Of a stretch of 64,000 bases of DNA, positions 17,940 through 51,732 are shown in pieces (position 1 is the first letter of the stretch; each line of letters begins with the position of its first letter). This DNA is from Oricola cellulosilytica. Lineage in GTDB: Bacteria > Pseudomonadota > Alphaproteobacteria > Rhizobiales > Rhizobiaceae. Where the stretch lies: positions 384,001-448,000 of the forward strand of contig NZ_JAINFK010000003.1 of NCBI RefSeq assembly GCF_019966575.1, read 5' to 3'. The notes below the pieces were generated by a model. It saw only the letters and a program-made list of their open reading frames with translations. It searched no databases and was not told the origin of the DNA. A program made the translations under genes and the position numbers.

Positions 17940-18029
17940 GGAGAGGTGGCAGAGTGGTCGAATGCACCGCACTCGAAATGCGGCATACGGGCGACCGTAT
18001 CGGGGGTTCGAATCCCCCCCTCTCCGCCA
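17940..18029 (+). tRNA. tRNA-Ser(CGA)
   Basis: The acceptor arms GGAGAGG and CCTCTCC pair fully, the T arm is GGGGG-TTCGAAT-CCCCC, and the CCA end is encoded (18027-18029). The anticodon stem CCGCA/TGCGG holds the loop CTCGAAA with anticodon CGA at 17974-17976, reading UCG serine codons. A long variable arm (TACGG-GCGA-CCGTA) confirms a class II serine tRNA. It is the last feature before a long accessory segment and may be an integration target. Confidence 0.97.
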
Positions 18030-18174
18030 GTGACCCCCACAAATCGTCTTTGTATTCCGTTGCGGCCGGCAACTTCGGCGGATTGTACAAACCGGGGGGG
18101 CATCGGGTATGACGCCTGATTTCGGCAGGCGCTGCACGGGCGCGGGAGCGGATGGGTTCGTCGGAGGAGGTGCA

Positions 18175-22947: not shown

Positions 22948-23076
22948 GAAATTCGATTTCGGATTTTCCGATATCACTGTTCAGATAAATGAATTTGTGA
23001 AACCTGCGCGCACGCGTAACCTGACTTCCCGGGAAGAGCGCCGCCATTCCGGCGGTCGAATACGGGAGACGTCGCC

Positions 23077-24237: not shown

Positions 24238-24307
24238 CCGACCATCTTCCATCGCGATGCAACTTCCGTCCGCCGGTTCGCCGGCGGACGGAACAACGGG
24301 ATATGCC

Positions 24308-25297: not shown

Positions 25298-26241
25298 GCG
25301 CGGCCTCTCACGCCATCCTGCCGGGACGCGGCGGCCTGTTCGGCTCGTTGTCGGACGTGCTTTGGCGCAATCCGCGCCTCATGCTGTTCCTGATGCTGAC
25401 GCCGCCCTTATTGTGGCTGGGCGTCATCTATCTGGGCTCCCTCTTCGCGTTGCTCGCCCAGAGCTTCTTCTCGATCGACGAGTTCTCCGGCCTGATAAAA
25501 TACGAATGGACGCTGAAGACCTATGCCGAGCTGCTGCGGCCGGCCAATCTCGACATAATCGTCCGCACGGTCAGCATGGCCGTCGCTGTGACGCTGGCGT
25601 CCGCGGTCATCGCCTTTCCCATAGCCTATTACGCGGCGCGCTATGCGCGAGGTAAGTGGAAGGCGTTGTTCTATCTCGGCGCCATGCTGCCGCTGTGGTC
25701 GAGCTACCTGGTCAAGGTCTATGCGTGGAAGCTGATCCTCGCCAAGGAAGGCATCCTCAACTGGATCTTCGCCAAGCTGCACCTGACGCCGGTACTCGAG
25801 GCATGGCTCGCGATCCCGGTCATCGGCGGCAACTCGCTGTCGGTCAGCTATACCGGCACCTTCCTTGTCTTCGTCTATGTCTGGCTGCCCTACATGATCC
25901 TGCCGACCCAAGCGGCGCTGGAGCGGGTGCCGGAATCGATGCTCGAGGCGTCGTCCGACCTCGGCGGCTCGCCGGTCCAGACATTCCGCCACGTGCTGCT
26001 GCCGCTGGCGCTGCCCGGCATCATCGCTGGTTCGATCTTCACCTTCTCGTTGACGCTCGGCGACTACATCATCCCGCAGATCGTCGGTTCCTCGCGGCTG
26101 TTCATCGGCCAGGCGGTTTATGCCCACCAGGGCACGGCGGGTAATATTCCGCTTGCCGCCGCCTTCACGGTCGTCCCGATCGTCATCATGGGTTTCTATC
26201 TCTGGATGGCAAAACGCCAGGGGGCTTTCGATGCGCTCTGA
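25294..26241 (+). CDS. ABC transporter permease (PotB-like)
   Basis: The 315-residue inner-membrane protein starts at GTG 25294, which overlaps the ATPase stop (GTGA). It has six probable membrane segments, the first near residues 29-50 ([22 protein letters not shown]). The EAA motif for contact with the ATPase is [25 protein letters not shown]. It forms the pore together with the PotC-like permease whose gene overlaps its end. Confidence 0.93.
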
Positions 26242-27046
26242 CCCTAACGGCAAGGCCCCGCTCGGCCTCAAGATCGCCGCCGCCGCGGGGCTCCTGTTTC
26301 TGCACCTGCCGATCCTCTTGATCTTCGTCTACGCCTTCACCACCGAGGACCGCAGCTACCAGTGGCCGCCGCCCGGGCTTACGCTGAAGTGGTTCGCGGT
26401 CACATGGAACAGGCCGGATGTCTGGGAGGCGCTTGGACTTTCGGTGCGTGTTGCCGCGATCTCGACGGTGATGGCCCTGATCCTCGGCACGCTCTGCGCG
26501 GCGGCTGTTTCGCGCACGAAGTTCTTCGGCCGCGAAACGATATCGTTGCTGGTGATCCTGCCGATCGCCTTGCCGGGCATCATCACCGGTATCGCGCTGC
26601 GCTCGGCGTTCAACCTGGCGGACGTCCCGTTCTCGTTCTGGACGATCGTGCTTGGCCACGCGACTTTCTGCGTCGTCGTCGTCTACAACAACGCGATCGC
26701 ACGCTTCCGCCGCACCTCCGGTTCGCTGATCGAGGCGTCGATGGATCTCGGCGCCGATGGCTTCCAGACATTTCGCCATGTGGTGCTGCCGAATATCGGC
26801 ACCGCGCTGCTGGCCGGCGGCATGCTCGCATTCGCGCTGTCCTTTGACGAGGTGATCGTCACCACTTTCACCGCCGGTCAGCAGGCGACGCTGCCGATCT
26901 GGATGCTCGAGGAACTCGTCCGTCCCCGCCAGCGCCCCGTCACCAACGTGGTTGCGATGGTGGTCGTGCTGGTGACGTTCCTGCCAATCCTCGCGGCCTA
27001 TTACCTCACCCGCGACGGCGACCGGATCGCCGGCAGCGGCAAGTGA
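26231..27046 (+). CDS. ABC transporter permease (PotC-like)
   Basis: This 271-residue membrane protein starts at ATG 26231, inside the last codons of the PotB-like gene (11-base overlap), showing tight coupling. It has about six membrane segments and the EAA motif [23 protein letters not shown]. It completes a binding protein/ATPase/two-permease importer of the spermidine/putrescine type. Confidence 0.93.
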
Positions 27047-27069
27047 ACTTCTGAAAAGGGAGAAGCCCC

Positions 27070-28494
27070 ATGGATACCCAAATGCTGATCGGCGGCAACC
27101 TCGAGAAGGGTGCGGACGCCGAGGAAAACATCCTCAATCCAAAGACGGGCGAATCCGTCTTGCATCTGCCCGAGGCGAGCCTCGACCAGATCGACCGAGC
27201 CGTGGACGCGGCTGACAAGGCGTTTGCGACCTGGTCGCGAACGACACCCGCCGAACGCTCGGCCTATCTCTTGAAGATCGCCGACCGCATCGAGGCCGAG
27301 GCCGATGGTTTCGCCGCGCTGGAGGCGCTCAACTGTGGCAAGCCGATCAATGCGGTGCGTGATGACGAGATCCCGGCCATTGTCGATTGCTACCGCTTCT
27401 TCGCGGGTGCGGTTCGCTGCACGCCGGGCAATGCCGCCGGAGAATACCTCTCCGGCTTCACCTCGATGATCCGCCGCGATCCGATCGGCATCGTCGCCTC
27501 CATCGCGCCGTGGAACTACCCGCTGATGATGATGGCCTGGAAGCTCGCGCCGGCCATCGGCGGCGGCAACACGGTCGTCTTCAAGCCGTCGGAACAGACG
27601 CCGTTGACGGCGCTGAAGATGGCGAAGATCCTCGCAGACGTCCTGCCCAAGGGCGTGGTCAACGTCGTTCTCGGCCGCGGCGAGAGCGTCGGCAACGCGC
27701 TGATCGACCACTCCAGGGTCAACATGATCTCGATCACCGGCGACGTCGCAACCGGCAAGAAAGTGCTGCAGGCCGCCGCCAAATCGGTCAAACGCACCCA
27801 CCTGGAACTCGGCGGCAAGGCCCCGGTCATCGTTTTCGACGACGCCGATGTCGACGCCGTAGTCGAGGGCGTGCGCACCTTCGGCTACTACAATGCCGGG
27901 CAGGACTGCACCGCCGCGTGCCGCATCTACGCCGCGCCGAAAATCCACGATAAGCTGGTCGCTGACCTGTCTGCCGCCGTCTCGACGATCAAATATGCGA
28001 GCGAGGACGACAGCGAGAACGAGATCGGCCCGCTGATCTCGCAGCGCCAGCGCGACCGCGTGGCAAGCTTCGTAGAGCGGGCCTCGACAATGAACCACAT
28101 GGAAATCACCGCCGGCGGCAAGGCACATGAGGGCAACGGCTTCTTCTACCAGCCGACCGTCATCGCCGGCGCGCTGCAGACTGACGAGATCGTTCGCCGC
28201 GAGGTGTTCGGCCCCGTGGTTTCGGTGACCCGCTTTACCGATGTGGACGAGGCCGTCGCATGGGCGAACGACTCCGACTATGGCTTGGCGTCCTCCGTGT
28301 GGACCAAGGACGTTTCGAAAGCGATGGAATGCGCCGCCCGGCTTCAATATGGCTGCACTTGGATTAATACGCATTTCATGCTGTGCAACGAAATGCCCCA
28401 CGGCGGCTTGAAGAAGTCCGGCTACGGTAAGGACATGTCACTCTACGCGCTGGAGGACTACACGGCCGTTCGCCACGTCATGATTGCTCACTAA
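27070..28494 (+). CDS. Gamma-aminobutyraldehyde-type aldehyde dehydrogenase
   Basis: This 474-residue NAD-dependent aldehyde dehydrogenase has the substrate channel motif [18 protein letters not shown], the general-base Glu in LELGGKAP and the catalytic Cys in [11 protein letters not shown]. Its closest look is to the PatD/YdcW group that oxidises 4-aminobutyraldehyde to GABA in putrescine breakdown. It follows the transporter after 23 bases with a GGGAG site, so it is in the same operon. Betaine-aldehyde-like substrates are an alternative. Confidence 0.88.
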
Positions 28495-38732: not shown

Positions 38733-39488
38733 TCAATGCGGGTTATCGCCCTGCAATTGTTCGCCAGTGACCGCTTGCACCATCGCAGCCAGCTTGTAGC
38801 CCACTCCATGCACGGTGAGAAGGAGATCGGCGTCTGCGCCGGCGTCGGCTAGCTTCCGACGCAGCCGCACCATGTGCGTGTCAATGGCGCGGTCCGTGAC
38901 CTGGATCGAGTTTCCGTAGACCGTGTGCAGAATTTCCTCTCGAGTCAGAACGTTGCCCTGCGCCCCGGCCAGCGCTTTCAACAAGGCGAATTCCGTGCTG
39001 GTTAGGCCGAGATCCAGGCGGTCGGGCCACCGGCGGGCGGTCGACTTGACCAAATCCAGCTCGATATTGGCGAAGCGGAGATTGGTGGGCGAACCGCCAA
39101 CCTCCGGGTCCGGAACCGGATGCCGGCCATGCCGACGCAGGACAGACCGCACCCGCGCCAGCAATTCGCGCGGCTCGTAGGGTTTGGTGACGTAATCATC
39201 AGCTCCGAGTTCGAGTCCGACGACTCTGTCGAAGAGTTCGTCCCGCGCCGTCAGCATGATGATCGGCACATCGTTGGAGCGGCGCAACTGCCGCGCGGCC
39301 TCCATTCCGTCCTCGTCGGGCAAGATGAGATCCAGTACGATCAGATCGAAACGATCTTTCTCCACTGCGGCGAACAGTTCCGCGCAACTCGCCGCCGACG
39401 TGGCGCGATACCCGTGTTTCTTGAAGAACCGCTCCAGAAACGAGGTCAGTTGCCTGTCGTCGTCAACAATGAGAACGTGCTGCTGCAT
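38733..39488 (-). CDS. OmpR/TorR-type response regulator
   Basis: The 251-residue protein has a receiver domain (HVLIVDDDRQLTSFLERFF, phospho-acceptor Asp53 in LIVLDLILPDEDG, Lys in VTKPYEPRELL) and a C-terminal OmpR-type winged helix (LTSTEFALLKALAGAQGNVLTREEIL, then VHGVGYKLA). The ATG at 39488 has GAGGGAT just before it. It is divergent from the hybrid sensor kinase across 77 bases and is next to the iodate-reductase-like cluster, so regulation of that cluster is likely. Confidence 0.93.
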   Translation of the reverse strand: MQQHVLIVDDDRQLTSFLERFFKKHGYRATSAASCAELFAAVEKDRFDLIVLDLILPDEDGMEAARQLRRSNDVPIIMLTARDELFDRVVGLELGADDYVTKPYEPRELLARVRSVLRRHGRHPVPDPEVGGSPTNLRFANIELDLVKSTARRWPDRLDLGLTSTEFALLKALAGAQGNVLTREEILHTVYGNSIQVTDRAIDTHMVRLRRKLADAGADADLLLTVHGVGYKLAAMVQAVTGEQLQGDNPH

Positions 39489-39565
39489 ATCCCTCGTCGC
39501 CCAACCCTTGACCATCTGTCGTAGTCGACCTTGCGCGGGACGGCAACACGGAGGAAGGTTGGCCA

Positions 39566-41767
39566 ATGGAAGCGTTGTCAGGTCGTGGATTGTCTCGTCC
39601 GCTGATCATCGTCTTGGCGGCCGTCGTCCTGTTGGCCATTACGGTCGCACTCGGCGCGACGTTGGGGCTTGCGACGCGCGTGCAGTTCCGTGAGATCGAG
39701 CAGAGCTGGGCCGAGTATTCCGGTGGAACAGAACGCAAGGCGATTCTCATCAGCAACCTGCGCGGCCATCTCGGCTATGGCGGCATCATCCACAATTTCA
39801 AGAACTATGTGCTGCGCCGCGAGCCGAGCTATCTGGAGACGACCCGCACGCAGATGCAGCGCTTCTACTCTGTTATCGCCGAGTTTCAGACGCTCAACCT
39901 GTCGGCTGAGGAAGCTCGTGCGCTCGACACCATTCTGGCGGCAATTAGAACCTACGAAGCAAAATTGCCCATCGCCATCAAAGCGGCTCAGGAGGGATGG
40001 GATCCGGAACGAACCGACGCACTGGTGCGCGTTGACGACAGCGCAGCGGTCGCGGCGCTTCACGACCTCGAGCAGATTTGGAAGGGTGTCCAGATAAGCA
40101 GTTCGCGCCGGATCGGCGCCGCGGTTACCGACGGGCAGTATCTGATCTGGCTCGGATTCATGTCGATCTTCGCGCTGGTGATCGTCGCGCTCCTGATCGG
40201 CTGGTTCGTCTTTCTGCTTGTTCGGAACCTGCATGGGGCGGTCAGCGATCTGGCCGCTCAACTGGCGGAACGACGGCGCCTCGAAAGCTCGGAGAGCCGG
40301 CTTGCCACAGCCGTCGAGCAGAGCCCCGCCACGATCATCATCACAGACACTGATGCGCGTATAGAATATGTCAATGCGAAATTCGAGGAACTCACCGGTT
40401 GGTCCCGCGATGAGATCCGCGGACAGACGCCGGCCTTTCTGCAATCCGGCGAGACATCCCCGCAGACCTATAATGAGATACGCGCCAGCCTGGCGGAGGG
40501 GCAGACGTGGCACGGCATCTTTCGCAACCGTAAAAGGGACGGCGCGAGCTACTGGACCGAAACGACGATTCTGCCGTTGCTCGCCAAGGACGGAACGACG
40601 AGAAACTTCATAGCCATCGGCGAGGACATCACGGAGAAACGCCACGCCAGGGATCAGGTGGTTCGCGCGCAGAAGCTTGAGGCGGTTGGTCAACTCGCAA
40701 GCGGCGTCGCGCATGATTTCAACAACATTCTGACGACCATCGTCGGATCGAGCCATCTGGCCGCCATGGATGCGCCGGGCGGCAGCGATCTTGCCGCCGA
40801 GGTCGCGCAGATCCAGATTGCTGCGCGCCGTGCGCAGTCGCTGGTAAGGGAACTGCTGACCTTCGCCCGGCGTGAACCAGGCCAAAAGAAGCCGGTGATC
40901 GTCGGGGCGATCGTCGCAGAGGTGGCCGGCCTTCTTAGGGCTTCCGTTCCGCCGTTTGTCAGGATCGTCTGTGCACCGCGATCCGATGATCTGGCGGTTC
41001 TCGGCGATCCGACACATCTGCACCAGATCCTGATGAATCTTTGCCGCAACGCAGCCGAGGCGATGAGCGGCAACCCGGGCACGATCACGGTTTTCCACGA
41101 ACCATGCGGCCCACCGGAGAACCAGCGAGCGCGACCGGACGGATGGGTTAGGCTGTGTGTCTCGGACGACGGCCCGGGAATGACGGCGGAAACGCAAGCA
41201 CACTTGTTCGAGCCATTTTTTACCACAAAGCCAATCGGCAAGGGCTCGGGACTTGGGCTCGCGGTCGTTTACGGTCTCGTCGACGATATGGGCGGACAAA
41301 TCGCGGTGGAGAGCGCCCTTGGCAAAGGCAGCCGGTTTACGTTGATCCTTCCACGCGCGTTCGCCACTGCCGGCGAGGCGATCGACGAGCACAGCGCCCT
41401 GCCCCGGGGGACCGAGCGACTGATCCTGATCGATGACGAGGCCGAGGTGGCCGGCACGTTCCGGAGATTGTTGCTCCGGCTAGGTTACAAAGTCGAGGCG
41501 TTTACGGCGCCGCTCCAGGCGCTTGAGCGGTTCCGGCAGGATCCGGCGCGCTTCGACCTGGTGATTTCCGACATGGTGATGCCCGAGATGAGCGGCGAGG
41601 TGCTGATGCAACAGTTCCGAGCATTGCGACCCCACATCCCGGTTCTGTTCTGCAGCGGTTACAAACCGCATCATATCGACCTGCCGGGTGCCGAGCCCGA
41701 GGTTCTGGACAAGCCTGTGGAGCCGGGACGGCTTGCCAGGAGCATTCGCGCCTTGCTCGACCGGTAG
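39566..41767 (+). CDS. Hybrid sensor histidine kinase (membrane, PAS, receiver)
   Basis: The 733-residue protein has membrane segments near residues 12-36 and 193-217. They enclose a helical periplasmic sensor of about 155 residues with the striking motif HLGYGGIIHNFKNYVLRRE. Then come a PAS domain (about 240-355), a HisKA domain with His383 (GVAHDFNNIL), an ATPase domain (LMNLCRNAAEAM, DDGPGM, GKGSGLGLAVVYG) and a C-terminal receiver with Asp669 (VISDMVMPEMSG). It ends 194 bases before the peroxidase/Rieske/molybdoenzyme operon. It probably senses a redox cue or an oxyanion. Confidence 0.93.
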   Translation: MEALSGRGLSRPLIIVLAAVVLLAITVALGATLGLATRVQFREIEQSWAEYSGGTERKAILISNLRGHLGYGGIIHNFKNYVLRREPSYLETTRTQMQRFYSVIAEFQTLNLSAEEARALDTILAAIRTYEAKLPIAIKAAQEGWDPERTDALVRVDDSAAVAALHDLEQIWKGVQISSSRRIGAAVTDGQYLIWLGFMSIFALVIVALLIGWFVFLLVRNLHGAVSDLAAQLAERRRLESSESRLATAVEQSPATIIITDTDARIEYVNAKFEELTGWSRDEIRGQTPAFLQSGETSPQTYNEIRASLAEGQTWHGIFRNRKRDGASYWTETTILPLLAKDGTTRNFIAIGEDITEKRHARDQVVRAQKLEAVGQLASGVAHDFNNILTTIVGSSHLAAMDAPGGSDLAAEVAQIQIAARRAQSLVRELLTFARREPGQKKPVIVGAIVAEVAGLLRASVPPFVRIVCAPRSDDLAVLGDPTHLHQILMNLCRNAAEAMSGNPGTITVFHEPCGPPENQRARPDGWVRLCVSDDGPGMTAETQAHLFEPFFTTKPIGKGSGLGLAVVYGLVDDMGGQIAVESALGKGSRFTLILPRAFATAGEAIDEHSALPRGTERLILIDDEAEVAGTFRRLLLRLGYKVEAFTAPLQALERFRQDPARFDLVISDMVMPEMSGEVLMQQFRALRPHIPVLFCSGYKPHHIDLPGAEPEVLDKPVEPGRLARSIRALLDR

Positions 41768-41806: not shown

Positions 41807-41836
41807 CGTCACAAAACGTCACAAATCCTCACAGCT
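41807..41836 (+). promoter_or_regulatory. Three tandem 10-bp direct repeats, candidate response-regulator binding site
   Basis: The repeats are CGTCACAAAA, CGTCACAAAT and CCTCACAGCT, head to tail with an exact 10-base period, 126-155 bases upstream of the first peroxidase start. OmpR-family regulators such as TorR bind 10-bp direct repeats. The nearby divergent regulator belongs to this family. The link is inference. Confidence 0.5.
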
Positions 41837-41961: not shown

Positions 41962-43041
41962 ATGATGATGAGAATTGGCATTGTGTCCTGCGTGGTCGTC
42001 CTCCTCGGCGGCACAGCCATCGCGCAGGATGTCACCCCGGAGCCTGGACTGGAGTTGAATGCCGCTAGAGCCGAACTGGGTAAGCGGCTGTTCTACGACA
42101 CGCGTCTCTCCGGCGACACGTCACTGTCCTGTGCGAGCTGCCATCAGCCCGACAAGGCATTCACCGACGGCGCGGCGCTCTCCGCCGCGTATACCGGTGC
42201 GGCGCATTTCCGGAACACGCCCACGCTCGCCAACGCGGGTTTTCGCGATGCGTGGCTGCACGACGGCCGTCTGGGAACCAACCTCAACGACGTTGCGCGG
42301 GAGATGATCACCGAGACCTACTTGATGAACATGGACATGCGGATCATGCAGGAGCGCCTGAAGCAGGATCCGATCTATGTGGAAATGTTCGCGACTGCCG
42401 GCATGTCGGAGCCGTCGAACGGCGGCGCCCGCAACGCGCTGATGGATTTCGTCAAGACCATCCAGTCGCGCAACGCGCCGATCGACACAGGCGAGATGTC
42501 TGCCGCCGCGCAACGAGGCCAGGGCATCTTCGAGGGAAAGGGCGGATGTGCAAGCTGCCATGCCGGCGTACGGTTCACCGATGATCGGCCGCACAATACC
42601 GGCGTGCCCAACAATCCGGAGATCTGGACCGATGCGGAGCGTCACTCGGCCTTCGTGACCTATGCCAAGTTCTTCGGCGTGCCGAACTACATGAACCTGC
42701 GCGAGGATCTGGGTGCCTATGTCCGCAATCGTCGCGACGGGACCCGGCGAAGCTTCCTCACGCCGACGCTCCGCGAGCTGACCTGGACTGCGCCATACAT
42801 GCACAATGGCATCTTCGCGACACTGGAGGAGGTGGTCGACTTCTACGACGCGGGCGGCGGGGACGATCCCTTGAAGGACGAAAGCCTTCGGCCGCTTGGC
42901 CTGGTTCCAAGCGAGAAGGACGACCTCATTGCCTTCCTCGAAAGCCTCAGCGGCGACAGCTTTGACACCGAAGCCTATGTCTGGCGAGAGGATGATTACG
43001 ACTACTCACTGATCGAAAATTGGCGCGACGTGCCGAATTGA
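41962..43041 (+). CDS. Dihaem cytochrome c peroxidase-like protein (IdrP type)
   Basis: The 359-residue periplasmic protein has a signal peptide (MMMRIGIVSCVVVLLGGTAIAQ) and two haem c sites, CASCH at 57-61 and CASCH at 196-200. The CcpA/MauG family pattern is present (ELGKRLFYDTRLSGDTSLSCASCHQPDKAFTDG, RNTPTLANA, YMHNGIF). Classical members reduce hydrogen peroxide with electrons from cytochrome c. In the Idr model the IdrP proteins remove peroxide formed during iodate reduction. It is the first gene of a four-gene operon. Which of IdrP1 or IdrP2 it matches cannot be decided here. Confidence 0.88.
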   Translation: MMMRIGIVSCVVVLLGGTAIAQDVTPEPGLELNAARAELGKRLFYDTRLSGDTSLSCASCHQPDKAFTDGAALSAAYTGAAHFRNTPTLANAGFRDAWLHDGRLGTNLNDVAREMITETYLMNMDMRIMQERLKQDPIYVEMFATAGMSEPSNGGARNALMDFVKTIQSRNAPIDTGEMSAAAQRGQGIFEGKGGCASCHAGVRFTDDRPHNTGVPNNPEIWTDAERHSAFVTYAKFFGVPNYMNLREDLGAYVRNRRDGTRRSFLTPTLRELTWTAPYMHNGIFATLEEVVDFYDAGGGDDPLKDESLRPLGLVPSEKDDLIAFLESLSGDSFDTEAYVWREDDYDYSLIENWRDVPN

Positions 43042-43049
43042 GGGAGGCC

Positions 43050-44180
43050 ATGATGACCGCACGCAGCATACTCACCGCAGCGGCGTTGGCAGTGCTCGCC
43101 ATTCCCGCGCTGGCGCAGGACAACCCCCGGCCCGAGGGTCTCGCACCGTTGGGTCCACCCCCGATCCCGGCCGACAATCCGATGACGCCGGAGAAGATCG
43201 CCCTCGGCGAGAAGCTCTTCTTCGATCCGGTGCTTTCAGGCAACTACGCGATGCCCTGCTCGTCCTGCCATCTGCCCGATGCCGGCTGGGCCGTGCAGAG
43301 CCCGATCAGCTTCGGATATCCGGGTACGACCCATTGGCGCAACAGCCAGACGGTGATCAATTCGGCCTATTACGGCAAACTGTTCTGGGCCGGCGCTTCC
43401 GGTTCGCTGGAGCATCAGGCCCGTTCGGCCGCCCGCGGGGGTGTCGCCGGAAATGGCGAGGACGACATGATGGAGGCACGTCTTGCCTTCATCCCGGAGT
43501 ACCGCAAGGCATTCCGCGAGGTGTTCGGCGATGACTGGCCGAGCGTCCGCCACGCCTATATGGCGATCGCGGCATATGAGCGTACGCTGGTACAGACCGA
43601 CACGCCGTTCGACGAATACATGCGTGGCGATGACGACGCGCTGACCGACGAGCAGAAGCGGGGCCTGGAACTGTTTGCCGGAAAGGCGAACTGCATCGCG
43701 TGCCACAACGGCCCGCTGCTGACGAACGAGGCCTACTACAACCTCGGCGTCCCGCCCTACGAGGGTTGGGAGACCGACGAACTCGCCCAGATCACCTTCC
43801 GCTTCGAACTCTACGCCAAGGGCGTGACCGAAGAGATGTATCGCGCAACGAAGGATGATCCCGGGCTGTATTTCCGGACGAAGCAGAAAGCCGACAAGGG
43901 AAAGTTCCGGGTGCCGTCTCTCCGCTACACCGCCTACACCTTTCCCTACATGCACAATGGCATGCTGGAGACGCTTCGCGATGTCGTGACGTTCTACAAC
44001 GAGGGCGGTGGCGAAAATGAATTCGCCGCGACAAAAACCGGTCTGATCCAGCCTCTTGGGCTCAACGAGACCGAAGTCGACGAACTTGTAGCGTTCTTGG
44101 AAAGCCTCAGCGGCGAGGAAATCCTGCCGGAAGAGCCGGAAACTCCGGAGATGCAGCCGTTGCCGGTCGCTCAGAACTGA
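43050..44180 (+). CDS. Dihaem cytochrome c peroxidase-like protein (IdrP type), second
   Basis: The 376-residue exported protein has a signal peptide (MMTARSILTAAALAVLAIPALAQ), haem sites CSSCH at 70-74 and CIACH at 215-219, and the family blocks LGEKLFFDPVLSGNYAMPCSSCH, NSAYYGKLFWAGASGSLEHQA and FPYMHNGML. An acidic/Pro tail (EEILPEEPETPEMQP) ends it. It differs clearly from the first peroxidase, so the pair is not a recent duplication. GGGAGG precedes the ATG at 43050, nine bases after the first gene. Confidence 0.88.
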   Translation: MMTARSILTAAALAVLAIPALAQDNPRPEGLAPLGPPPIPADNPMTPEKIALGEKLFFDPVLSGNYAMPCSSCHLPDAGWAVQSPISFGYPGTTHWRNSQTVINSAYYGKLFWAGASGSLEHQARSAARGGVAGNGEDDMMEARLAFIPEYRKAFREVFGDDWPSVRHAYMAIAAYERTLVQTDTPFDEYMRGDDDALTDEQKRGLELFAGKANCIACHNGPLLTNEAYYNLGVPPYEGWETDELAQITFRFELYAKGVTEEMYRATKDDPGLYFRTKQKADKGKFRVPSLRYTAYTFPYMHNGMLETLRDVVTFYNEGGGENEFAATKTGLIQPLGLNETEVDELVAFLESLSGEEILPEEPETPEMQPLPVAQN

Positions 44181-44194
44181 CGAGGAGCAGGAAA

Positions 44195-44782
44195 ATGAAG
44201 AACGTTGATCCGAAAATCCTCGCAGCCATCAATGGCAACAACGGAGAAGCCGAGAAGGCGGGCACGCGCCGCTGCCTCATGAACCGGCGCCAGTTCCTCC
44301 TGACAGGAGGAATCGCCACGACGGTCGTGATGGTCGGCATCCCTGGCCTCGCCCAGGCCCAGACACCGGCTGCTGTCTCGACATATCCGCGCAAGCTCAT
44401 CGCGAAGCTGAGCGAACTCGAAACGGACGTGCCTTTCGATTTCGAATACCCGGACGAGGGCGAATACGCGGAATCGATCCTCGTCAAGCTCGGCCGCGAG
44501 GCCGGTGGCGGCATTGGCCCCGAGAAGGACGTCGTTGCCTTCAACTACACCTGCACCCATCAGGGCGGCCCCCTGCAAGGAACCTATCAGGCCGCCGATA
44601 AGGCGCTTGGCCCTTGCCCGCTGCATCTAACGACTTTCGACCTGACCCGGCATGGCATCTTCATCGCCGGACAAGCCTATCAGTCGCTGCCGCAGGTGCT
44701 GCTGGAACTCGATGGCGACGATATCTACGCCGTCGGCATGTTCGGCCTGATCTACGGCCGCTTCGACAATCTGCAGGGCTGA
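44195..44782 (+). CDS. idrB: Rieske iron-sulfur subunit, iodate reductase/arsenite oxidase small-subunit type
   Basis: This 195-residue protein has a twin-arginine signal (MNRRQFLLTGGIATTVVMVG at residues 29-48, after a long n-region), so it should be exported folded. The [2Fe-2S] ligands are Cys120/His122 (CTHQG) and Cys141/His144 (CPLH). The disulfide cysteines seen in bc1 Rieske proteins are absent. It fits AioB/IdrB small subunits, which carry electrons between the molybdenum subunit and cytochrome c. The Mo subunit has no signal and is probably exported together with this one. The symbol rests on the dihaem peroxidase neighbours. Confidence 0.82.
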   Translation: MKNVDPKILAAINGNNGEAEKAGTRRCLMNRRQFLLTGGIATTVVMVGIPGLAQAQTPAAVSTYPRKLIAKLSELETDVPFDFEYPDEGEYAESILVKLGREAGGGIGPEKDVVAFNYTCTHQGGPLQGTYQAADKALGPCPLHLTTFDLTRHGIFIAGQAYQSLPQVLLELDGDDIYAVGMFGLIYGRFDNLQG

Positions 44783-44795
44783 GGAGGAACACGAG

Positions 44796-47471
44796 ATGTC
44801 CACACCCTATTACGTCCCGGAAACCTCCGTTCCGCTGCCGCCCCCCGATGCGGATGTGGTTTCAACGGCATGCGACTATTGCATCGTCGCCTGCGGCTAC
44901 AAGGTTTATCGCTGGCCTGTTGCCGGCGGCCGCAACGGCGGTCCAAAGGCCGAGGAAAACGCCTTCGGCGAAGATTTTCCGGTCGCTCCGCTCGGTGCGT
45001 GGGTTGCGCCGAACCAGCACAACATCGTGCTGCACAATGGCGAGCCGCACCACGTGGTGATCATTCCCGACAAGGAGACCGAATTCGTCAACTACTCGGG
45101 CAATTCGTCGATTCGTGGCGGCGCCATCGCCCAGAAGGTTTACAATCCACAAACGCCGACCCGCGACCGGCTGAAATCGCCAATGGTTCGGATGTTCGGT
45201 GTGCTGATGCCCGTGACCTGGGATTTCGCATTGGATATCGCAGCCGAGGTGGGCAATCACGTGCTGGAGAAGCACGGCACGAACGCCTACGGCGTCAAGA
45301 CATTCTCCTATGGCTATATGGAGAACACCTATGCGATCACGAAATATGCGCTTCGTCATGTGCGCACGGCGAACTTCACCTTTCACGACACGCCTTCGGA
45401 CGTGACGTCGACCCCCGGTTTCCGGGATGCCGGCTTCGACAATTTCGGACCGAGCTATGACGACTGGGCCGATGCGGACACGCTTTTGATGTGTGGCACG
45501 GACCCCTACGAATCGAAAACCATTCTCTTCACCGATTTCATCATGCCGGCGATCCAGAATGGACAGAAGACAATCTTCCTGCTGCCGCGCCGGACTTCCG
45601 GGACGGCCTTTGCTGAGAAGAATGGCGGCATGGTCATCGACATCCAGCCCGGCACCGATTTGCCGGTGGTGCTCGCTATCGCGCGGGTGATCGTCGAGAA
45701 CGGCTGGGAAGACCGGGAGTGGATCCAGAAATGGGTCAACAATAAATGGGAAAGCTCGTCCGGTTTCGGCCAGGGCACGCGCAACACGCCGTGGCAATGG
45801 CGCACGACTTGGGGCAAGTTCCAGACCGCCGGCTTCGATGACTGGAAGGAGTGGCTTCTCGCCCAGGATTATTCGGTGCCGGAGAAGGCTGCTGAAATTG
45901 CGCAGATCGACGTTCAGAAGATCTACACCGCAGCGGAGTGGATGGCAAAGCCCCGCGAGGATGGCTCGCGTCCCAAGACCTCCATCATGATCGAAAAAGG
46001 CTTTTACTGGTCGAATAACACCGGCAACACGCAAGCCATTTCGGCGCTCGGGATCACCGTCGGGGCGGGAGGCCGGCCCGGTCAGGTGATTGGCCGCGCC
46101 GGCGGCCACCAGCGCGGCGGTCTGCGCGGAGGCAGCTATCCGCGCAACAAGTCGCCCGAAAAGCTGCCCGGCCGGCGCCGCCGCGCGATGGACACCGACC
46201 GCTACCTGATGTCGGGCCACACGCGGCTGGCCCATGTCATCGGCACCACCTGGGTGCAGGCGATGTGCGGATCGCAATCGCTTCAGGCCAAGTTCGACGA
46301 GCTGACGACACGCAATCCGCATCAGGTAATGAGCTTCGACAGGCAGGACATCGTCGACACCCTCAAGCGGCGCGCGGATTCTGGCGGCATGGTAGTCTGG
46401 AACCAGGACATCTATCTGGTCGACCCGATCGGCGCGCGATATGCCGATATCATCTTCCCCGCATCGGGATGGGGCGAGGAAACCTTTACCCGGGCCAATG
46501 GCGAACGCCGCATTCGGCTCTATCCAAAGTTCTACGATGCGCCCGGCGAGGCGAAACCCGATTGGTGGATCATCGCCCAGCTCGCAAGAAAAATGGGTTT
46601 CGAGGGTTTTGACTGGCAGAACTCGAACGATGTGCTGGAGGAAGGTGCTCGCCATTCTCGTGGCAGCCGTAAGGACTTCAACATGGTCAAGGTGGCGGCC
46701 CAGCGCGAGGGCAGAACTCTGCACGAGAAACTTGGCGAGTTCGGCACCAATGGCATCCAGGGGCCGGTGCTCATGGACATCGACGGCAATCTTGTCGAGA
46801 CGAAGCGCCTCCACGACGTTGATCGCGTGTTGCCAGACATCGGTCCGGTCGGGGCGACCGTGTTCAACAAGAAGCTGACGCATTTCAACAGCCAGACGGG
46901 GAAGTGCAATATCCAGAAGGCGCCTTGGGACCTGTTCTCGAGCTACTGGGAATGGCTGCGTCCCCGCGAGGACGAGATCTGGATCAGTTCGGGGCGTATC
47001 AACGAGCGGTGGCAATCCGGCTACGATGACCGTCGACGGCCCTATATCGTTCAGCGCTGGCCGGAAAACTGGATCGAGTTGCATCCCTCGGTCGCCGAGG
47101 CGCGCGGCATCGAAAGCGGCGATTATGTGCAGGTCTACTCGGATCGGATTCCGGTTCAGAAGGACACGATTATCGGAGTGGAGGACAGCGACTTTGATTT
47201 CGCCTCGCTCATGAAGAACGGGCATATCGAGCTGACGCGCGCATCGATCACTGCGGTGGCGATCGTCACACCGGCGGTCAAGGAGAACCTCGGCTATATG
47301 GACTTCCTGCATACCTCCCAGCCGGCCAACGCGCTTGCGGGCCGCGTCGTCGACTGGATCAGCGGCAACTACAACTACAAAATGGGCGTCGGAAAAGTGC
47401 GGAAGATGGGCGAAAGCCCGTACAAGACGCAGTTCCGCTCCATGTCGTTCGCCCGCCGCGACATAGCCTGA
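44796..47471 (+). CDS. idrA: Molybdopterin oxidoreductase catalytic subunit, iodate reductase-like (AioA relative)
   Basis: The 891-residue DMSO-reductase-family enzyme begins with Cys26-x2-Cys29-x3-Cys33 (CDYCIVACGY). A Ser (104/105, NSSIRGG) stands where most relatives have the fourth Cys, which suggests a [3Fe-4S] cluster as in arsenite oxidase. Later blocks such as HTRLAHVIGTTWVQAMCGSQS and GARYADIIFPASGWGEE fit the bis-MGD binding fold. Iodate reductase IdrA is a sister of AioA and is encoded with a Rieske protein and two dihaem peroxidases, exactly the neighbours here. Arsenite oxidase is the main alternative, but no ars or phosphate-stress genes are nearby. GAGGAGG precedes the ATG. 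Confidence 0.82.
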   Translation: MSTPYYVPETSVPLPPPDADVVSTACDYCIVACGYKVYRWPVAGGRNGGPKAEENAFGEDFPVAPLGAWVAPNQHNIVLHNGEPHHVVIIPDKETEFVNYSGNSSIRGGAIAQKVYNPQTPTRDRLKSPMVRMFGVLMPVTWDFALDIAAEVGNHVLEKHGTNAYGVKTFSYGYMENTYAITKYALRHVRTANFTFHDTPSDVTSTPGFRDAGFDNFGPSYDDWADADTLLMCGTDPYESKTILFTDFIMPAIQNGQKTIFLLPRRTSGTAFAEKNGGMVIDIQPGTDLPVVLAIARVIVENGWEDREWIQKWVNNKWESSSGFGQGTRNTPWQWRTTWGKFQTAGFDDWKEWLLAQDYSVPEKAAEIAQIDVQKIYTAAEWMAKPREDGSRPKTSIMIEKGFYWSNNTGNTQAISALGITVGAGGRPGQVIGRAGGHQRGGLRGGSYPRNKSPEKLPGRRRRAMDTDRYLMSGHTRLAHVIGTTWVQAMCGSQSLQAKFDELTTRNPHQVMSFDRQDIVDTLKRRADSGGMVVWNQDIYLVDPIGARYADIIFPASGWGEETFTRANGERRIRLYPKFYDAPGEAKPDWWIIAQLARKMGFEGFDWQNSNDVLEEGARHSRGSRKDFNMVKVAAQREGRTLHEKLGEFGTNGIQGPVLMDIDGNLVETKRLHDVDRVLPDIGPVGATVFNKKLTHFNSQTGKCNIQKAPWDLFSSYWEWLRPREDEIWISSGRINERWQSGYDDRRRPYIVQRWPENWIELHPSVAEARGIESGDYVQVYSDRIPVQKDTIIGVEDSDFDFASLMKNGHIELTRASITAVAIVTPAVKENLGYMDFLHTSQPANALAGRVVDWISGNYNYKMGVGKVRKMGESPYKTQFRSMSFARRDIA

Positions 47472-47535
47472 AGCAAACCCGGTCGTCTGGCACTTTCTGG
47501 CGGTCGGCCGCATGCGGAAACCTTGGGGAACGCCA

Positions 47536-49704
47536 ATGCAAGCGCAAACTGACCACGTGAGGGAGGACATCTCTCTTGTCACTGCGCTGTCGCGATATCT
47601 GGACAGCGATAATGAAGTCTTGCGCTCCGCTGCAATCCGTGCGGTCGCGACGCTCGATGGCGATCCGGACGCCCGTAGACTCCTGTTGCTGGAGGCGTTG
47701 CTCGACCCGGATCCCGATATCCGCGGCGATGCAATGGAAGGACTTCGGGGCATTGCCTTGCGCGACGACGCCGAAACGATCCGGCGGTCGCTAGAGGGAG
47801 ACCCGGACCGCGAGGTGAAGTTGGACGCGATTGATCTCCTTACGCAAATCGGAGACCTCGGCTCGACGGACCTGCTCCGCGCGCTCGTTCGATCGAGCAG
47901 TGATGATCGCGTCGCATGGGAGGCGGAAGGCAGCGATTGGGAGGATTGGCTGGACATCCAGATTGCGTCGATCGCCGCGCTCGGTGCGCTCGGTGTGACG
48001 GAGGCGATCGAGGATCTCCTGGCCGCGAGGGACGATGAGTGCGGGCAGACGCTCGACGTGCAGGTGTTTCGCGCCTTGGCCACCATGGGTGCGGAGGGAA
48101 CCGAAAGATTATTGATGCTGATGGATCAGGAGAGCGGATTGGGCAGGAGACGGGTTCTCGATTCCCTCGCCAGCGCCGATCCGGACGCGCTGCTCCGGCA
48201 TCTCGAGACATTGCTGTCCTCAGCTGATGCACAACTGCGCGGCATGGCTGTGCCGCTGCTCGATCCCGACGATTCTCGCGCAAGGGCGCTCGTGGTCGAC
48301 GACCCCGATCCGGATGTACGCCGCCTGTCGATCTGCCATTTCGCACCGGTGCAACCGGACCTCGCCATCATAGGCCTTTCTGACGCTTCTGAAACGGTTC
48401 AGGCGGAGGCGCTCGATCATCTTTCCCGGCCAATCACGTCGGAACTCCACGAAGCGCTTGTCGACAACATGCTGGCCTGGCTGCAAAACGGCGGGTCTGC
48501 GCTCGCAACTACGACGGCGCGTAATCTGCCGCTCTATGCACCGAACCGGGCAGAGGGGCCGCTGCTGGGCTTGATCGAGGACACGGGTCGGCCGCTGGAA
48601 GCACGCCTTGCCGCCGTGGCCTCGCTGGCGGCCGTCCATCCGGCCGTCGCGACGTCTCGATACGGCGCGCTGCTTGCGAACCCCGCACAACAAGTTCGGG
48701 TCGCCTCCCTCGTCGCACTGCGGGACCGTGCGGAGGCGGGGGACATGGAGGCGCTGACGGTTCTCCACGAGGCGATCGCTGGTACGCTGCCGCTGCCCGA
48801 CCGGCCCACGCGGGAAAGGCCGGAACAAGGTGGCCCCGATCTCGCGTTGCCCAAGGGTGAAGGCCCTGGCGTACGGCGTATCCGCATCACGCCGGATGGT
48901 GACATTGTCGAGGATGCGGGCAGGGATCCGGAAGCAGCGTCCACACTTGACGCAATCCTTGACGAGCAGGAGGGTGGTTCCGAGCCTGAGCTCGCTGAGA
49001 ACACTCCGGAAGAAGCCGGCGGGAAGCGACGCAAACGCCGGCCGGTCGAGGGACCCGATGAAATCGCCGAGAGCGTCGCGCTCGACGCGATGCGGCTGTG
49101 CGCCGGATTGGGCGTCGACCCGATTGGCGCGGCCATCCTTTCTCGCTGCCTCGACCCGGTCACCGAAATTCGGTTGACGGCCTGGGTAGCACTCTCGTCC
49201 TTTTGCCAGGTCGCAGGAAAATATCCGGAGGCGATGGCCGCTGCTCAGGCTGCCTTCTCCGACCCCGAACCCGGGATCCGGCTGGCCGCTTTCTCTATCC
49301 TGACTTTAGGGGATTTAGCTCCCGACGTATTGGCGGCGGCAATCAAGGACAGCGACGCGCTTGTTCGCGCAGCGGCCATACGCCACCTTCCTGGGGAAAT
49401 GGCAGTGGAACTGATCGCCGACGATGCGCTTGCCGTTCGCATGGCCGCCTGCGAGGCCATTCTTTCGTTCGGTTCGGATGCCATGATCGGTGCGGCGGTC
49501 AACCGGTTGCTGACAGCCGAACGAGCCGACGCGCTTTCAATTGTATTGGCCGATGCCCCGCATGCCCTGCGAATGGCGGCGATCACCCTCTCAGACGCGC
49601 ATCTTTCGCCGCGCAAGGCGCTCGTGATCCTGCAAGCTCTTGCGAACCGCGCATCGGTGCGCAACGCTGACGGTCGGCCCCGCGCTGAACCGGCTCTGTC
49701 GTGA
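47536..49704 (+). CDS. HEAT-repeat protein, possible accessory factor of the molybdoenzyme
   Basis: This protein of about 722 residues consists of HEAT-like helical pairs from near the N-terminus to about residue 415 (for example DNEVLRSAAIRAVATLDGDPDARRLLLLEALLDPDPDIRGDAMEGL). An acidic, charged linker of about 100 residues (with GGKRRKRRP) is followed by further repeats to the end. It has no signal peptide, so it is cytoplasmic. ATG 47536 has GGGGA upstream; an ATG 24 bases earlier is possible. It follows idrA by 64 bases and its stop overlaps the next gene. A scaffold or maturation role is inference. Confidence 0.8.
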   Translation: MQAQTDHVREDISLVTALSRYLDSDNEVLRSAAIRAVATLDGDPDARRLLLLEALLDPDPDIRGDAMEGLRGIALRDDAETIRRSLEGDPDREVKLDAIDLLTQIGDLGSTDLLRALVRSSSDDRVAWEAEGSDWEDWLDIQIASIAALGALGVTEAIEDLLAARDDECGQTLDVQVFRALATMGAEGTERLLMLMDQESGLGRRRVLDSLASADPDALLRHLETLLSSADAQLRGMAVPLLDPDDSRARALVVDDPDPDVRRLSICHFAPVQPDLAIIGLSDASETVQAEALDHLSRPITSELHEALVDNMLAWLQNGGSALATTTARNLPLYAPNRAEGPLLGLIEDTGRPLEARLAAVASLAAVHPAVATSRYGALLANPAQQVRVASLVALRDRAEAGDMEALTVLHEAIAGTLPLPDRPTRERPEQGGPDLALPKGEGPGVRRIRITPDGDIVEDAGRDPEAASTLDAILDEQEGGSEPELAENTPEEAGGKRRKRRPVEGPDEIAESVALDAMRLCAGLGVDPIGAAILSRCLDPVTEIRLTAWVALSSFCQVAGKYPEAMAAAQAAFSDPEPGIRLAAFSILTLGDLAPDVLAAAIKDSDALVRAAAIRHLPGEMAVELIADDALAVRMAACEAILSFGSDAMIGAAVNRLLTAERADALSIVLADAPHALRMAAITLSDAHLSPRKALVILQALANRASVRNADGRPRAEPALS

Positions 49705-50231
49705 ACATCGTCTTTGTCAGTGCGCCCCCCAAGGGCGACAACGATCTGCTGCTGTCGCGCTTTGCCGATTGCGTTGCGGCCAGGGGGATCAGGGCTTGTG
49801 GCATTGTGCAAAACAATGTTGAGCGCTGTGACCGTCTGCCGTGCGACATGGAGGCGAAGGTCCTGCCGGACGGTCCGCGTCTTCGCATTTCGCAGTCACT
49901 CGGCAGGGGCGCGCGCGGCTGCCGGCTCGACTCGGGCGCGCTGGAAGAGGCGGTTGGCCTTGTTAGCACGCATATTCAAGGAGGTGCTGACCTTCTTATT
50001 GTGAACAAGTTCGGCAAGCACGAGGCCGCCGGACGTGGCATGCGCGAAGTCATTGGCGAAGCGTTGTCGCGCGATATTCCGGTCATTGTCGGCCTCAATC
50101 CGCTCAATGCGGCCCCCTTCATCGAATTCACCGGTGGCGAGGCTGTCGGACTGCCTGCCGATCTCGGTGCATTGATGGCTTGGGTGGAAAGCGTGGTCTC
50201 GCAAGAGGAGCGACACGGAGAGCTGGCATAA
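49701..50231 (+). CDS. DUF2478 family protein
   Basis: The 176-residue protein starts at GTG 49701, which overlaps the HEAT gene stop (GTGA). It has the DUF2478 pattern: GIRACGIVQNN, ISQSLGRGARGCRLDSGALEEAV, ADLLIVNKFGKHEAAGRGMREVIGEAL, IPVIVGLNPLN. The fold looks like a P-loop NTPase, but the N-terminal loop (SAPPKGDND) lacks a proper Walker A. The family often lies near molybdenum genes, which fits a role in serving idrA. Its last codons are made of the 5' end of a tRNA-Ser-like relic. Confidence 0.85.
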   Translation: MNIVFVSAPPKGDNDLLLSRFADCVAARGIRACGIVQNNVERCDRLPCDMEAKVLPDGPRLRISQSLGRGARGCRLDSGALEEAVGLVSTHIQGGADLLIVNKFGKHEAAGRGMREVIGEALSRDIPVIVGLNPLNAAPFIEFTGGEAVGLPADLGALMAWVESVVSQEERHGELA

Positions 50232-50303
50232 TGGTCGAATGCACCGCAATCGAAATGCTGTATCCAAGCGACCGTATCGGGGTTCGAATCCCCCTCTCCG
50301 CCA
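50217..50303 (+). pseudogene. Decayed tRNA-Ser(CGA) copy, candidate attachment-site remnant
   Basis: The 87-base stretch matches the intact tRNA gene at 17940-18029 along its whole length, and the match continues about 9 bases upstream. The anticodon CGA is kept (50251-50253), but position 32 is A and the anticodon stem has a C-T mismatch. The variable arm no longer pairs, and one G and two C are lost from the T/acceptor stems. It is very unlikely to work. The copy has the same orientation as the intact gene and begins inside the end of the DUF2478 gene. Confidence 0.8.
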
Positions 50304-50396: not shown

Positions 50397-51302
50397 ATGG
50401 AAAAGAGATGCGCAATGCTCGTCTCGCGGGTTCACCGATTCATTTCTCCGCTCAACACCCGTATCCCGGTCGACGGGGATATGCTTCCACTGTGGAAGCT
50501 CGAGCTGTACAGCCTGAACCGTGCGTTCTGCGGCGCGCTGCTCGTAGCGCTTCCTTTGCTGTACACGATGGAAATGTGGGACCGCCCACGGCTTCTCCCG
50601 GGATGGCTGGTGGTCTTATGGATGATCTTTGGCGTGTTTCTTTGCGCCGCATTTTTCCTCTTTTCCGGTTTTAGGAAGGAAAACCTCAAGCGGTCTGTCG
50701 TACTTGATGGCGTGACTTCGATGGGTGTCGGGATCTTTGCCAGCGCGATGACGCTGCTTCTTATCGGACGTTATCAGTGGGGGGAATCACTCGACATCAT
50801 CGCGCGCCTTGTGGCTCTGGAGTCCGTGCCTACGGGGATGGGCGCGAGCGTAGCGATCTCGCAACTCGGCGGGCGTGGCGCCGTGGCCCGGTCGAACCCG
50901 GCATCTCGCATTAATCCCGATCTCAGGGCGCTGCTTGCCACTTTTTTAGGGGCGTTGCTGTTCTCGTTCAATATTGCGCCGACGGTGGAACATCAGGTCA
51001 TCGCGCAATCGGTGGGTGGGTGGCACGTTGCCGGTATCGCCCTCTTTTCACTCATAACATCATGGCTTCTGGTCTTTCACACCCGGACCGAAGGTGTGAG
51101 CGGCGACGAACGCGTCGCGCTAACCGACACATTTTCCAGCACCATCTTCAGTTACCTCAGCGCCCTCATTGCCTCCTACGCGATGCTATGGCTCTTCGGC
51201 TATCTGACTCCCGGCATGCCCCTGCACCTCCAGGTCGTTCACACAATCATTCTCGGCTACGCCGCTACCCTTGGGGGCGCCGCGGGCCGGATACTTCTAT
51301 GA
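50397..51302 (+). CDS. TIGR02587 family integral membrane protein
   Basis: This protein of up to 301 residues has about eight hydrophobic segments (for example NRAFCGALLVALPLLYTMEM, VSMGVGIFASAMTLLLIG-like, YLSALIASYAMLWLFGYL). The pattern, and the partner gene next to it, identify the TIGR02587 family, whose function is unknown. An alternative ATG lies at 50415. The gene follows the tRNA relic by 93 bases, so it may lie just outside the accessory segment. Confidence 0.8.
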   Translation: MEKRCAMLVSRVHRFISPLNTRIPVDGDMLPLWKLELYSLNRAFCGALLVALPLLYTMEMWDRPRLLPGWLVVLWMIFGVFLCAAFFLFSGFRKENLKRSVVLDGVTSMGVGIFASAMTLLLIGRYQWGESLDIIARLVALESVPTGMGASVAISQLGGRGAVARSNPASRINPDLRALLATFLGALLFSFNIAPTVEHQVIAQSVGGWHVAGIALFSLITSWLLVFHTRTEGVSGDERVALTDTFSSTIFSYLSALIASYAMLWLFGYLTPGMPLHLQVVHTIILGYAATLGGAAGRILL

Positions 51303-51318
51303 CGCGGGAACATCTCAG

Positions 51319-51732
51319 ATGAGCAAGACGGACAGCGACCATGACGATGGCGACGAAAAGGTGCATGACGACCCCCCCACCATAGTTGAATGGGTCACCC
51401 GATTGGCCGCTGCCGTGCTGGTGATCGGGTTATTCGGGTATCTTCTCTGGCATGCGACCGATTTGAACAAGCCGGCGGCGTTCGACTTCACGGTGGAGGG
51501 GGACAAGGCTGAGCGTATGGGGACCGTTTGGCGCACGCCAGTCACAGTAACGAACACGGGTGATGAGGGGGTGAAAGAGCTCAAGATTTCTGCCGACGTT
51601 CCTGGGGTGAAGCAAACCTACACCTTGCTCGTGTCCCAGATCGGTCCCGGCGAACGTTACGATTTCACACTCTTCCTGCAAGACGATCCGCGCGAACTTC
51701 CACCGGTGTTCCGGGTGGAGTCGCACCAGTAG
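51319..51732 (+). CDS. TIGR02588 family protein
   Basis: The 137-residue protein has an acidic N-terminus, one membrane segment (residues about 24-46, RLAAAVLVIGLFGYLLWHA) and an immunoglobulin-like periplasmic domain (TPVTVTNTGDEGVKELKISADVPG, GPGERYDFTLFLQDDP). It starts 17 bases after the TIGR02587 gene. The two families are known to occur as a pair, probably as one membrane unit. The function is unknown. Confidence 0.82.
   Translation: MSKTDSDHDDGDEKVHDDPPTIVEWVTRLAAAVLVIGLFGYLLWHATDLNKPAAFDFTVEGDKAERMGTVWRTPVTVTNTGDEGVKELKISADVPGVKQTYTLLVSQIGPGERYDFTLFLQDDPRELPPVFRVESHQ

Follow-up and report, generated by a model that had tools for sequence, protein, structure and literature searches.

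Here we have analysed a 64,000-nucleotide stretch of the Oricola cellulosilytica genome (NCBI RefSeq assembly GCF_019966575.1, contig NZ_JAINFK010000003.1, positions 384,001 to 448,000 of the forward strand; hereafter the window) and find in it four tightly packed genes, idrP1, idrP2, idrB and idrA, that very probably form an iodate reductase locus, iodate turnover itself being predicted by comparison with known systems. In its core the operon belongs, without special features, to an already published type, since its molybdenum (Mo) subunit stands on the iodate reductase (Idr) side of the family tree, has lost pocket residues of arsenite oxidase (Aio) and is encoded in the usual gene order. 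The four-gene core and its order are already known; beyond them we find a conserved HEAT-repeat gene behind idrA and, in front of idrP1, a kinase-regulator pair with a putative operator, none of which we saw described in the open-access texts covered. We tentatively propose, with confidence that falls appreciably short of even, a five-gene alphaproteobacterial Idr unit in which a previously undescribed HEAT family would act as a dedicated cytoplasmic assembly factor for IdrA, unrelated to TorD/NarJ, and which would often be switched by an iodate-responsive kinase (sensor motif GYGGIIHNFKNYVLR) together with an OmpR-type regulator at GTCACA-like repeats.

The core consists of four open reading frames (Tat, twin-arginine translocation; Mo-bisPGD, the Mo-bis(pyranopterin guanine dinucleotide) cofactor):

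41962..43041, + strand: idrP1-like dihaem MauG/CCP protein, 359 amino acids, two CASCH motifs (Pfam CCP_MauG)
43050..44180, + strand: idrP2-like dihaem MauG/CCP protein, 376 amino acids counted from ATG, motifs CSSCH and CIACH (Pfam CCP_MauG)
44195..44782, + strand: idrB, Tat-type Rieske [2Fe-2S] subunit, 195 amino acids (Pfam Rieske)
44796..47471, + strand: idrA, Mo-bisPGD catalytic subunit with a [3Fe-4S] site, 891 amino acids (Pfam Rieske_3 (3Fe-4S), Molybdopterin, Molydop_binding)

An earlier, sequence-only reading of this DNA had described two unlike dihaem peroxidases, a Tat-type Rieske protein and an AioA-like Mo subunit in one tight operon; reading frames, Pfam matches and motifs bear this out, as do the gaps between successive genes (8, 14 and 13 bases, all four genes on the + strand). 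The CxxCxxxC motif and the Ser in the fourth cluster position that it had reported are likewise present in IdrA, as CDYCIVAC at residues 26-33 with Ser at both 104 and 105 (X70 and X71), and the protein thereby contains the published [3Fe-4S] motif CX2CX3CX70S. Ser105 (X71) is the invariant Ser of the Idr alignment and lies one residue further along than in Azoarcus sp. DN11 (PMC10149662). No hydrophobic N-terminus is visible on IdrA by inspection of its sequence. The N-terminal region of IdrB contains NRRQFLL, and its Rieske pattern CxHx18CxxH reads CTH-18-CPLH.

The 80 named idr loci of our comparison (L042 to L121) are the best 80 of 510 relatives, so that locus counts speak for the near clade; genes were called with a home-made caller whose starts may be off and which called no idrA in L038, L078, L079 and L080. 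By pattern match, all 76 called IdrB proteins have the Rieske pattern and 65 of them a loose twin-arginine pattern, while two CxxCH motifs per protein occur in 60/68 first and 62/68 second peroxidases as called, counts that are affected by several called starts being too short. The order peroxidase-peroxidase-Rieske-Mo subunit is the same in the related loci compared, save where a contig end interrupts the set, and this retention by homologues places the four-gene arrangement beyond chance. The sequence-only reading had suggested comparing this order with known loci; we discard it as a novelty because the two peroxidases are stated always to precede idrAB (PMC8801600), which makes the order here the ordinary, published one. 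The genome (3.70 Mb in 12 contigs) holds a single idr copy, its other Mo-enzyme matches being weak (best E 2.6e-8).

IdrABP1P2 is an established system, through its expression in Pseudomonas sp. SCT and through deletion and complementation of idrA in Denitromonas sp. IR-12 (PMC8692401). The systems of these two strains, of Azoarcus sp. DN11 and of Aromatoleum sp. TC-10 consist of the same four genes as that of the window, and also share with it the peroxidases-first order, the [3Fe-4S] motif and the Tat-type Rieske subunit (PMC8692401, PMC10149662, PMC8801600). Aerobic marine Alphaproteobacteria also carry idrABP1P2 (PMC11445184), their sequences lying outside the present comparison.

In a 55-row tree of Mo subunits, three rows of which are outgroups shortened by locus ends, the 45 Idr and 7 Aio rows fall on opposite sides of one branch, with a Shimodaira-Hasegawa-like approximate likelihood ratio test (SH-aLRT) support of 99. 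The window IdrA lies outside the AioA clade and deep within Idr, in a 13-row set (support 100) that contains Aliiroseovarius sp. L064, and its neighbours are marine Alphaproteobacteria, the closest being Rhodobacteraceae records. Among the full-length matches listed, identity to the window IdrA is 44-94% for Idr and about 26-35% for Aio-like proteins, with none between. The four-gene neighbourhood, the tree split and the pocket residues described next thus uphold the IdrABP1P2 identity first read from the letters; the accompanying call of a Hyphomicrobiales-type genome also stands, same-order and same-family relatives matching Tepidamorphaceae, Ahrensia sp. and Aurantimonadaceae records.

The pocket residues draw the same line. 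Eight second-sphere residues are listed for the Aio of NT-26 (PMC10448176), and all eight are invariant in 35/35 Aio rows of our alignment, from which 16 identical rows had been removed (147 to 131) and whose Idr and Aio classes were assigned before the tree, by identity to the window above 40%. His199, Lys413, Arg447 and His451 are kept in 96/96 Idr rows, whereas Asp169, Arg201, Glu207 and Glu453 are replaced in 96/96, window included: Asp169 by Ser; Arg201 by Thr (89), Lys (6) or His (1); Glu207 by Ser (89), Asp (6) or Ala (1); and Glu453 by Arg (95) or Cys (1). Asp169 and Glu453 are the funnel mouth positions, and since both acids are lost in Idr, one of them to Arg, an anionic substrate would fit; these changes would suit an anion such as iodate over neutral arsenous acid.

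We also observed a deep Idr-like Mo subunit (L162, G038:C228; 44% identity) with a Rieske gene and with cytochrome and membrane-protein genes adjoining; no peroxidase gene was matched near it. Perhaps this locus belongs to an unassigned clade between Idr and Aio.

Directly behind idrA, 64 bases past its end, begins a fifth gene:

47536..49704, + strand: HEAT-repeat protein, 722 amino acids (Pfam HEAT_2), with a longer ATG start at 47512

This HEAT gene is the next same-strand gene after idrA in 70 of the 70 loci in which both were called, window included, at distances from a 4-base overlap to 303 bases. A profile built from 36 proteins (that of the window and those of 35 loci, whose matches are thus built in) matches 79/80 near-clade loci and, on the 45 loci outside its building set, 44; the sole miss, L061, has 348 bases of contig beyond idrA. 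Similarly, tblastn with the window protein finds 78/80 loci, and its two misses, L061 and L081, are both short of downstream contig. In a family sample of 297 genomes, the present one among them, the HEAT protein has five matches, each directly beside idrA. IdrA of at least 50% identity occurs in 9 of these 297 genomes, four of them with no HEAT match: in G323 and G495 a contig edge lies near idrA, and G295 and G385 belong to a distant Idr branch. Among eight distant idr loci the profile matches one, L160, whose Idr is of 56% identity; it finds no HEAT gene in L156, L157, L161, L162 or the Azonexus (L037), Vibrio (L038) and Thiothrix (L039) loci, nor in any of 36 aio loci, searched with flanks of at most 3 kb and mostly 1.5 kb.

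The AlphaFold2 model of the HEAT protein is an alpha-solenoid (mean predicted local distance difference test score, pLDDT, 87.8) with a disordered stretch near residues 424-506, and no signal peptide is evident by eye. Its invariant residues include W128, W135, W138, Q142, D167 and Q171, the first four within a motif W-x6-W-x2-W-L-D-V-Q at W128-Q142 (numbered in the 722-residue form). Where other genes follow in idr loci, Mo-cofactor genes are among them, for example one that we take from its sequence to be MoeA-like, and MoaA, annotated in L037 and L039.

We give about even odds that the HEAT protein would be an assembly helper of IdrA. An only slightly less probable alternative is that it has a separate function, for example as a scaffold or a sensor partner, and takes no part in IdrA maturation. 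The generic fold speaks for such a function: a search of the Protein Data Bank with the model returned general solenoid and scaffold matches alone among the 50 rows listed. So do the existence of idr loci without the gene and the variation of the remaining follower genes from locus to locus. Its strict adjacency to idrA, with no match elsewhere in the family sample, and the presence of MoeA-like and MoaA-like genes among the other followers speak against it. Several of these observations weigh directly on the assembly-helper reading. The unspecific fold is one; another is that the Azonexus, Vibrio and Thiothrix loci lack the gene that the window has, from which it follows that not every Idr needs a HEAT protein; and because the gap behind idrA is 64 bases here and up to 303 elsewhere, a single idrA-HEAT transcript is not a given.

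Upstream of idrP1 lie the elements that we propose as its control:

38733..39488, - strand: OmpR-type response regulator, divergent from the kinase, start possibly at 39515 (Pfam Response_reg, Trans_reg_C)
39566..41767, + strand: hybrid histidine kinase (Pfam PAS, HisKA, HATPase_c, receiver); two hydrophobic stretches flank its sensor segment
41808..41833, + strand: putative operator GTCACA-N4-GTCACA-N4-CTCACA, three repeats with a 10-base period, upstream of idrP1

The kinase cluster is present in 29/84 loci (window included) and the regulator cluster in 28/84. Of the latter, 26 are near idr, 16 of them divergent beside the kinase (window included) and 10 downstream in Ruegeria loci, whereas those of L063 and L064 are distant regulators. 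The kinase-regulator pair also accompanies the distant Idr of L156, L157 and L161, where the regulator is 57, 57 and 48% identical. Within the kinase, the sensor motif GYGGIIHNFKNYVLR (residues 70-84) is conserved at 14 of 15 positions at no less than 93% in 33 kinases.

At up to two mismatches the repeat array occurs once in the 3.7 Mb genome, and at up to three it has one match in the window, where 0.02 are expected. When the 350 bases before idrP1 were compared with shuffled sequence, 18/29 kinase loci passed (at most 2 of 200 shuffles), as against 0/14 loci with a Crp-type gene and 1/23 others, this one (L098) having a kinase remnant; 66 of the 84 loci could be scored, since in the others the upstream sequence fell short of 350 bases or the caller had not given two peroxidase genes. 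The GTCACA consensus was fixed after other upstream sequences had also been viewed. The test was redone with TCACA as read in the window, with the window excluded and L112 and L113 dropped for length. At period 10, 15/26 kinase-to-idrP1 intervals then score at least 12 of 15, against 0/229 control upstream stretches, and 12/18 non-redundant intervals reach 12. Scores of at least 13 are found in 12/26 intervals at period 10 and in 0/26 at each of periods 7-9 and 11-14. Searched over the full kinase-idrP1 interval, L047 and L050 pass as well (0/500 resamples as high); furthermore, the distant loci L161, L157 and L156 score 16 of 18 (0/500), 13 (5/500) and 12 (13/500), while the family relative L158 is weak at 12 (41/500) and L058 is not significant at 10 (283/500).

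We regard the repeats as the putative operator of the OmpR-type regulator, which would bind them as DNA. Three points tell against this assignment: the regulator-operator link is one of co-occurrence, 11/29 kinase loci fail the repeat test within the 350 bases searched, and the array is weak or absent at L042, L055, L058, L067, L096, L101, L107, L112 and L113.

Binding sites of TorR type are direct repeats with 10-base spacing, like those of the window. TorS/TorR-type control of Mo reductases likewise pairs a hybrid kinase with an OmpR-type regulator; the window kinase, however, scores well under the TorS cut-off (102.4 vs 676.5 bits), and the repeat sequence and sensor motif are its own. A two-component system is also often near published idr genes (PMC8692401, PMC10149662, PMC8801600), as here, and other idr clusters carry a two-component system, cytochrome c551 and moaA as accessory genes (PMC10149662, PMC8801600). 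In strain DN11 the pair is the sigma-54 type AtoC/AtoS (PMC10149662), unlike the OmpR-type regulator and hybrid kinase of the window, and the Azonexus locus L037 has a sigma-54 regulator pair as in DN11. We met no description of either the HEAT gene or the kinase-regulator-operator set at idr in open-access main texts, a view that does not extend to figures and supplements (among them the gene-neighbourhood figures of PMC8692401 and PMC8801600); in the main text of PMC11445184 the terms HEAT, two-component, histidine kinase and regulator do not occur.

Where the hybrid kinase is missing, the peroxidases are often immediately preceded by a divergent Crp/Fnr-type gene (e.g., L059:6112-6675), a second regulatory style whose gene cluster, of which one member was scanned, occurs in 15 loci. 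In a metagenome-assembled genome (MAG) titled Anaerolineae (L105), the upstream neighbours of idr (clusters c77-c82) are the same as in the Alphaproteobacteria MAG L094, a likeness due either to mis-binning or to recent transfer.

Joining these parts, we suggest that at low oxygen and in the presence of iodate the sensor of the hybrid kinase (39566-41767) would signal to the divergent OmpR-type regulator, which would attach to the repeats of 10-base period at 41808-41833 and thereby activate idrP1, idrP2, idrB, idrA, the HEAT gene and a DUF2478 gene that follows it (see below). IdrA would be made in the cytoplasm and loaded with Mo-bisPGD, the HEAT and DUF2478 proteins perhaps assisting, and the loaded protein would be exported together with Tat-borne IdrB. 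IdrAB would then pass electrons from a periplasmic carrier to iodate, reducing it, probably to hypoiodous acid, which would disproportionate to iodide and iodate, while the two dihaem peroxidases would clear hydrogen peroxide or other oxidants.

Notoacmeibacter marinus is, like the organism studied here, a member of the Hyphomicrobiales (PMC11092082). When grown statically, this species and two other idr-bearing Alphaproteobacteria removed 2 mM iodate almost completely by reduction; under shaking they reduced 0.1-0.5 mM, and they showed no anaerobic growth (PMC11445184). Because these bacteria reduce iodate statically and do not grow anaerobically, the locus would, in an aerobic organism related to the rhizobia, more likely serve as an electron sink under oxygen limitation than for true anaerobic respiration.

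The same study bears on whether the natural substrate might be another oxyanion (chlorate, bromate or a broad set), iodate being turned over incidentally. Such an Idr-family enzyme would leave room for the finding that a crude extract of Roseovarius azorensis gave no detectable activity above 0.1 U/mg (PMC11445184), and our comparison, including the rows of the tree, contains no experimentally assayed IdrA, which also weighs on the iodate reading. We nevertheless consider it improbable, given that an in-gel iodate-reducing band contained IdrA, that idrA of R. azorensis responds from 0.1 uM iodate, and that the three Alphaproteobacteria reduced iodate at 2 mM (PMC11445184).

A different enzyme altogether, an arsenite (or antimonite) oxidase whose operon had gained two peroxidases, is what automated annotation would suggest, and we judge it very improbable. 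Both subunits score above the cut-offs of the NCBIfam arsenite oxidase models (arsenite_ox_L, 421.7 bits against 359.05, on the large subunit; arsenite_ox_S, 119.1 against 95.65, on the small one), AioA provides the nearest solved structures, and the tree-building tool warns of long branches meeting at the Idr/Aio fork, the outgroup end branches being 10, 10 and 5. These points count against an Idr identity. The models behind the labels (TIGR02693/TIGR02694) cannot separate Idr from Aio, and no Idr model was among the NCBIfam matches to the window proteins, so that the arsenite oxidase label is indecisive; owing to the long outgroup branches we use the unrooted split and not the root. AioAB of NT-26 and Alcaligenes faecalis does resemble the window proteins in subunit make-up, in its [3Fe-4S] and Rieske clusters and in His199, Lys413, Arg447 and His451, but it retains Asp169, Arg201, Glu207 and Glu453, is about 30% identical and comes without peroxidases, this last in accord with what the sequence-only reading had said of arsenite oxidase operons and with PMC8692401. 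We therefore reject arsenite oxidase on tree position and on the four changed pocket residues, which include both funnel-mouth positions; the identity gap and the peroxidase genes likewise stand against it. Least probable of all is the scheme proposed for strain SCT (PMC8692401), in which a chlorite dismutase (Cld)-like protein finishes the hypoiodous acid, and we reject it because this genome has no Cld family member at E 0.001, a search in which 7/14 control genomes were positive.

Behind the HEAT gene, which it overlaps by 4 bases, follows the DUF2478 gene of the proposed unit:

49701..50231, + strand: DUF2478 protein (Pfam DUF2478, 166 bits)

The family has one match in this genome, and its cluster is found in 10/84 loci (window included); in the distant loci L156 and L157 the gene comes directly after idrA. 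Counting against a part in iodate reduction, the family also occurs in the idr-less congeners G390, G453 and G538 and so is not restricted to idr. In the window the 3' end of the gene extends into a decayed tRNA-Ser(CGA)-like copy, described below, that overlaps its last codons and stop, which makes the C-terminus of the protein seemingly tRNA-derived. Just beyond the tRNA copy, at 50415-51732, lies a gene for a DUF2391/TIGR02587-like membrane protein that scores below the NCBIfam cut-off, followed by a gene for a 137-residue protein without a Pfam match. Elsewhere, a gene for a cupredoxin of the plastocyanin/azurin family is near idr in 19 loci (e.g., L044:15012-15353; one member was scanned), and its product is a candidate electron donor replacing cytochrome c551.

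As regards origin, two tRNA features may delimit the segment that carries the locus:

17940..18029, + strand: intact tRNA-Ser(CGA), possible left edge, at whose 3' end congener synteny stops
50208..50303, + strand: possible right edge, a degenerate copy resembling tRNA-Ser(CGA), with 86.9% identity to the intact tRNA-Ser across 99 columns

IdrA of at least 50% identity occurs in 1/6 genomes of the genus, where the congener G390 has an Aio-like gene, and in the 9/297 family genomes given above; horizontal acquisition of a locus of alphaproteobacterial type would be the best explanation of this pattern. The DNA match to congeners ends at 18029-18032 in 4/4 compared and is not colinear beyond, the retrieved congener regions concurring on the break to within 35 bases. 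This break at the 3' end of the tRNA-Ser, together with the decayed copy at 50208-50303, suggests that the tRNA was a site of gene gain and that the segment 18030-50303 was built there. A clean mobile element between the tRNA copies is not supported: the right-hand copy is a whole but decayed tRNA and not a short repeat, the other genes of the segment are partly scattered in a congener, and a search of called genes for recombinases gave none (no family match at E 1e-8 in 16 of the 17 genes called between 18.2 and 38.5 kb, and none by Pfam among the scanned idr-locus genes). Base composition does not stand out. Within the segment, a block at 22044-28493 (LysR, ATP-binding cassette (ABC) transporter, aldehyde dehydrogenase) shares 84% identity with a block on one G390 contig, while 18.1-21.5 kb matches a different contig of that congener.

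Bacterial iodate reduction may supply seawater iodide, which reacts with ozone (PMC11445184). With a candidate regulator, a short putative operator that lends itself to searching, a pocket signature separating Idr from Aio and a conserved candidate helper gene in hand, iodate sensing and enzyme assembly become testable. The pocket signature would sharpen counts made with family models that are blind to the difference between IdrA and AioA; furthermore, if the proposed five-gene unit and its control are true, the repeat array could locate iodate-responsive promoters directly in genomes.

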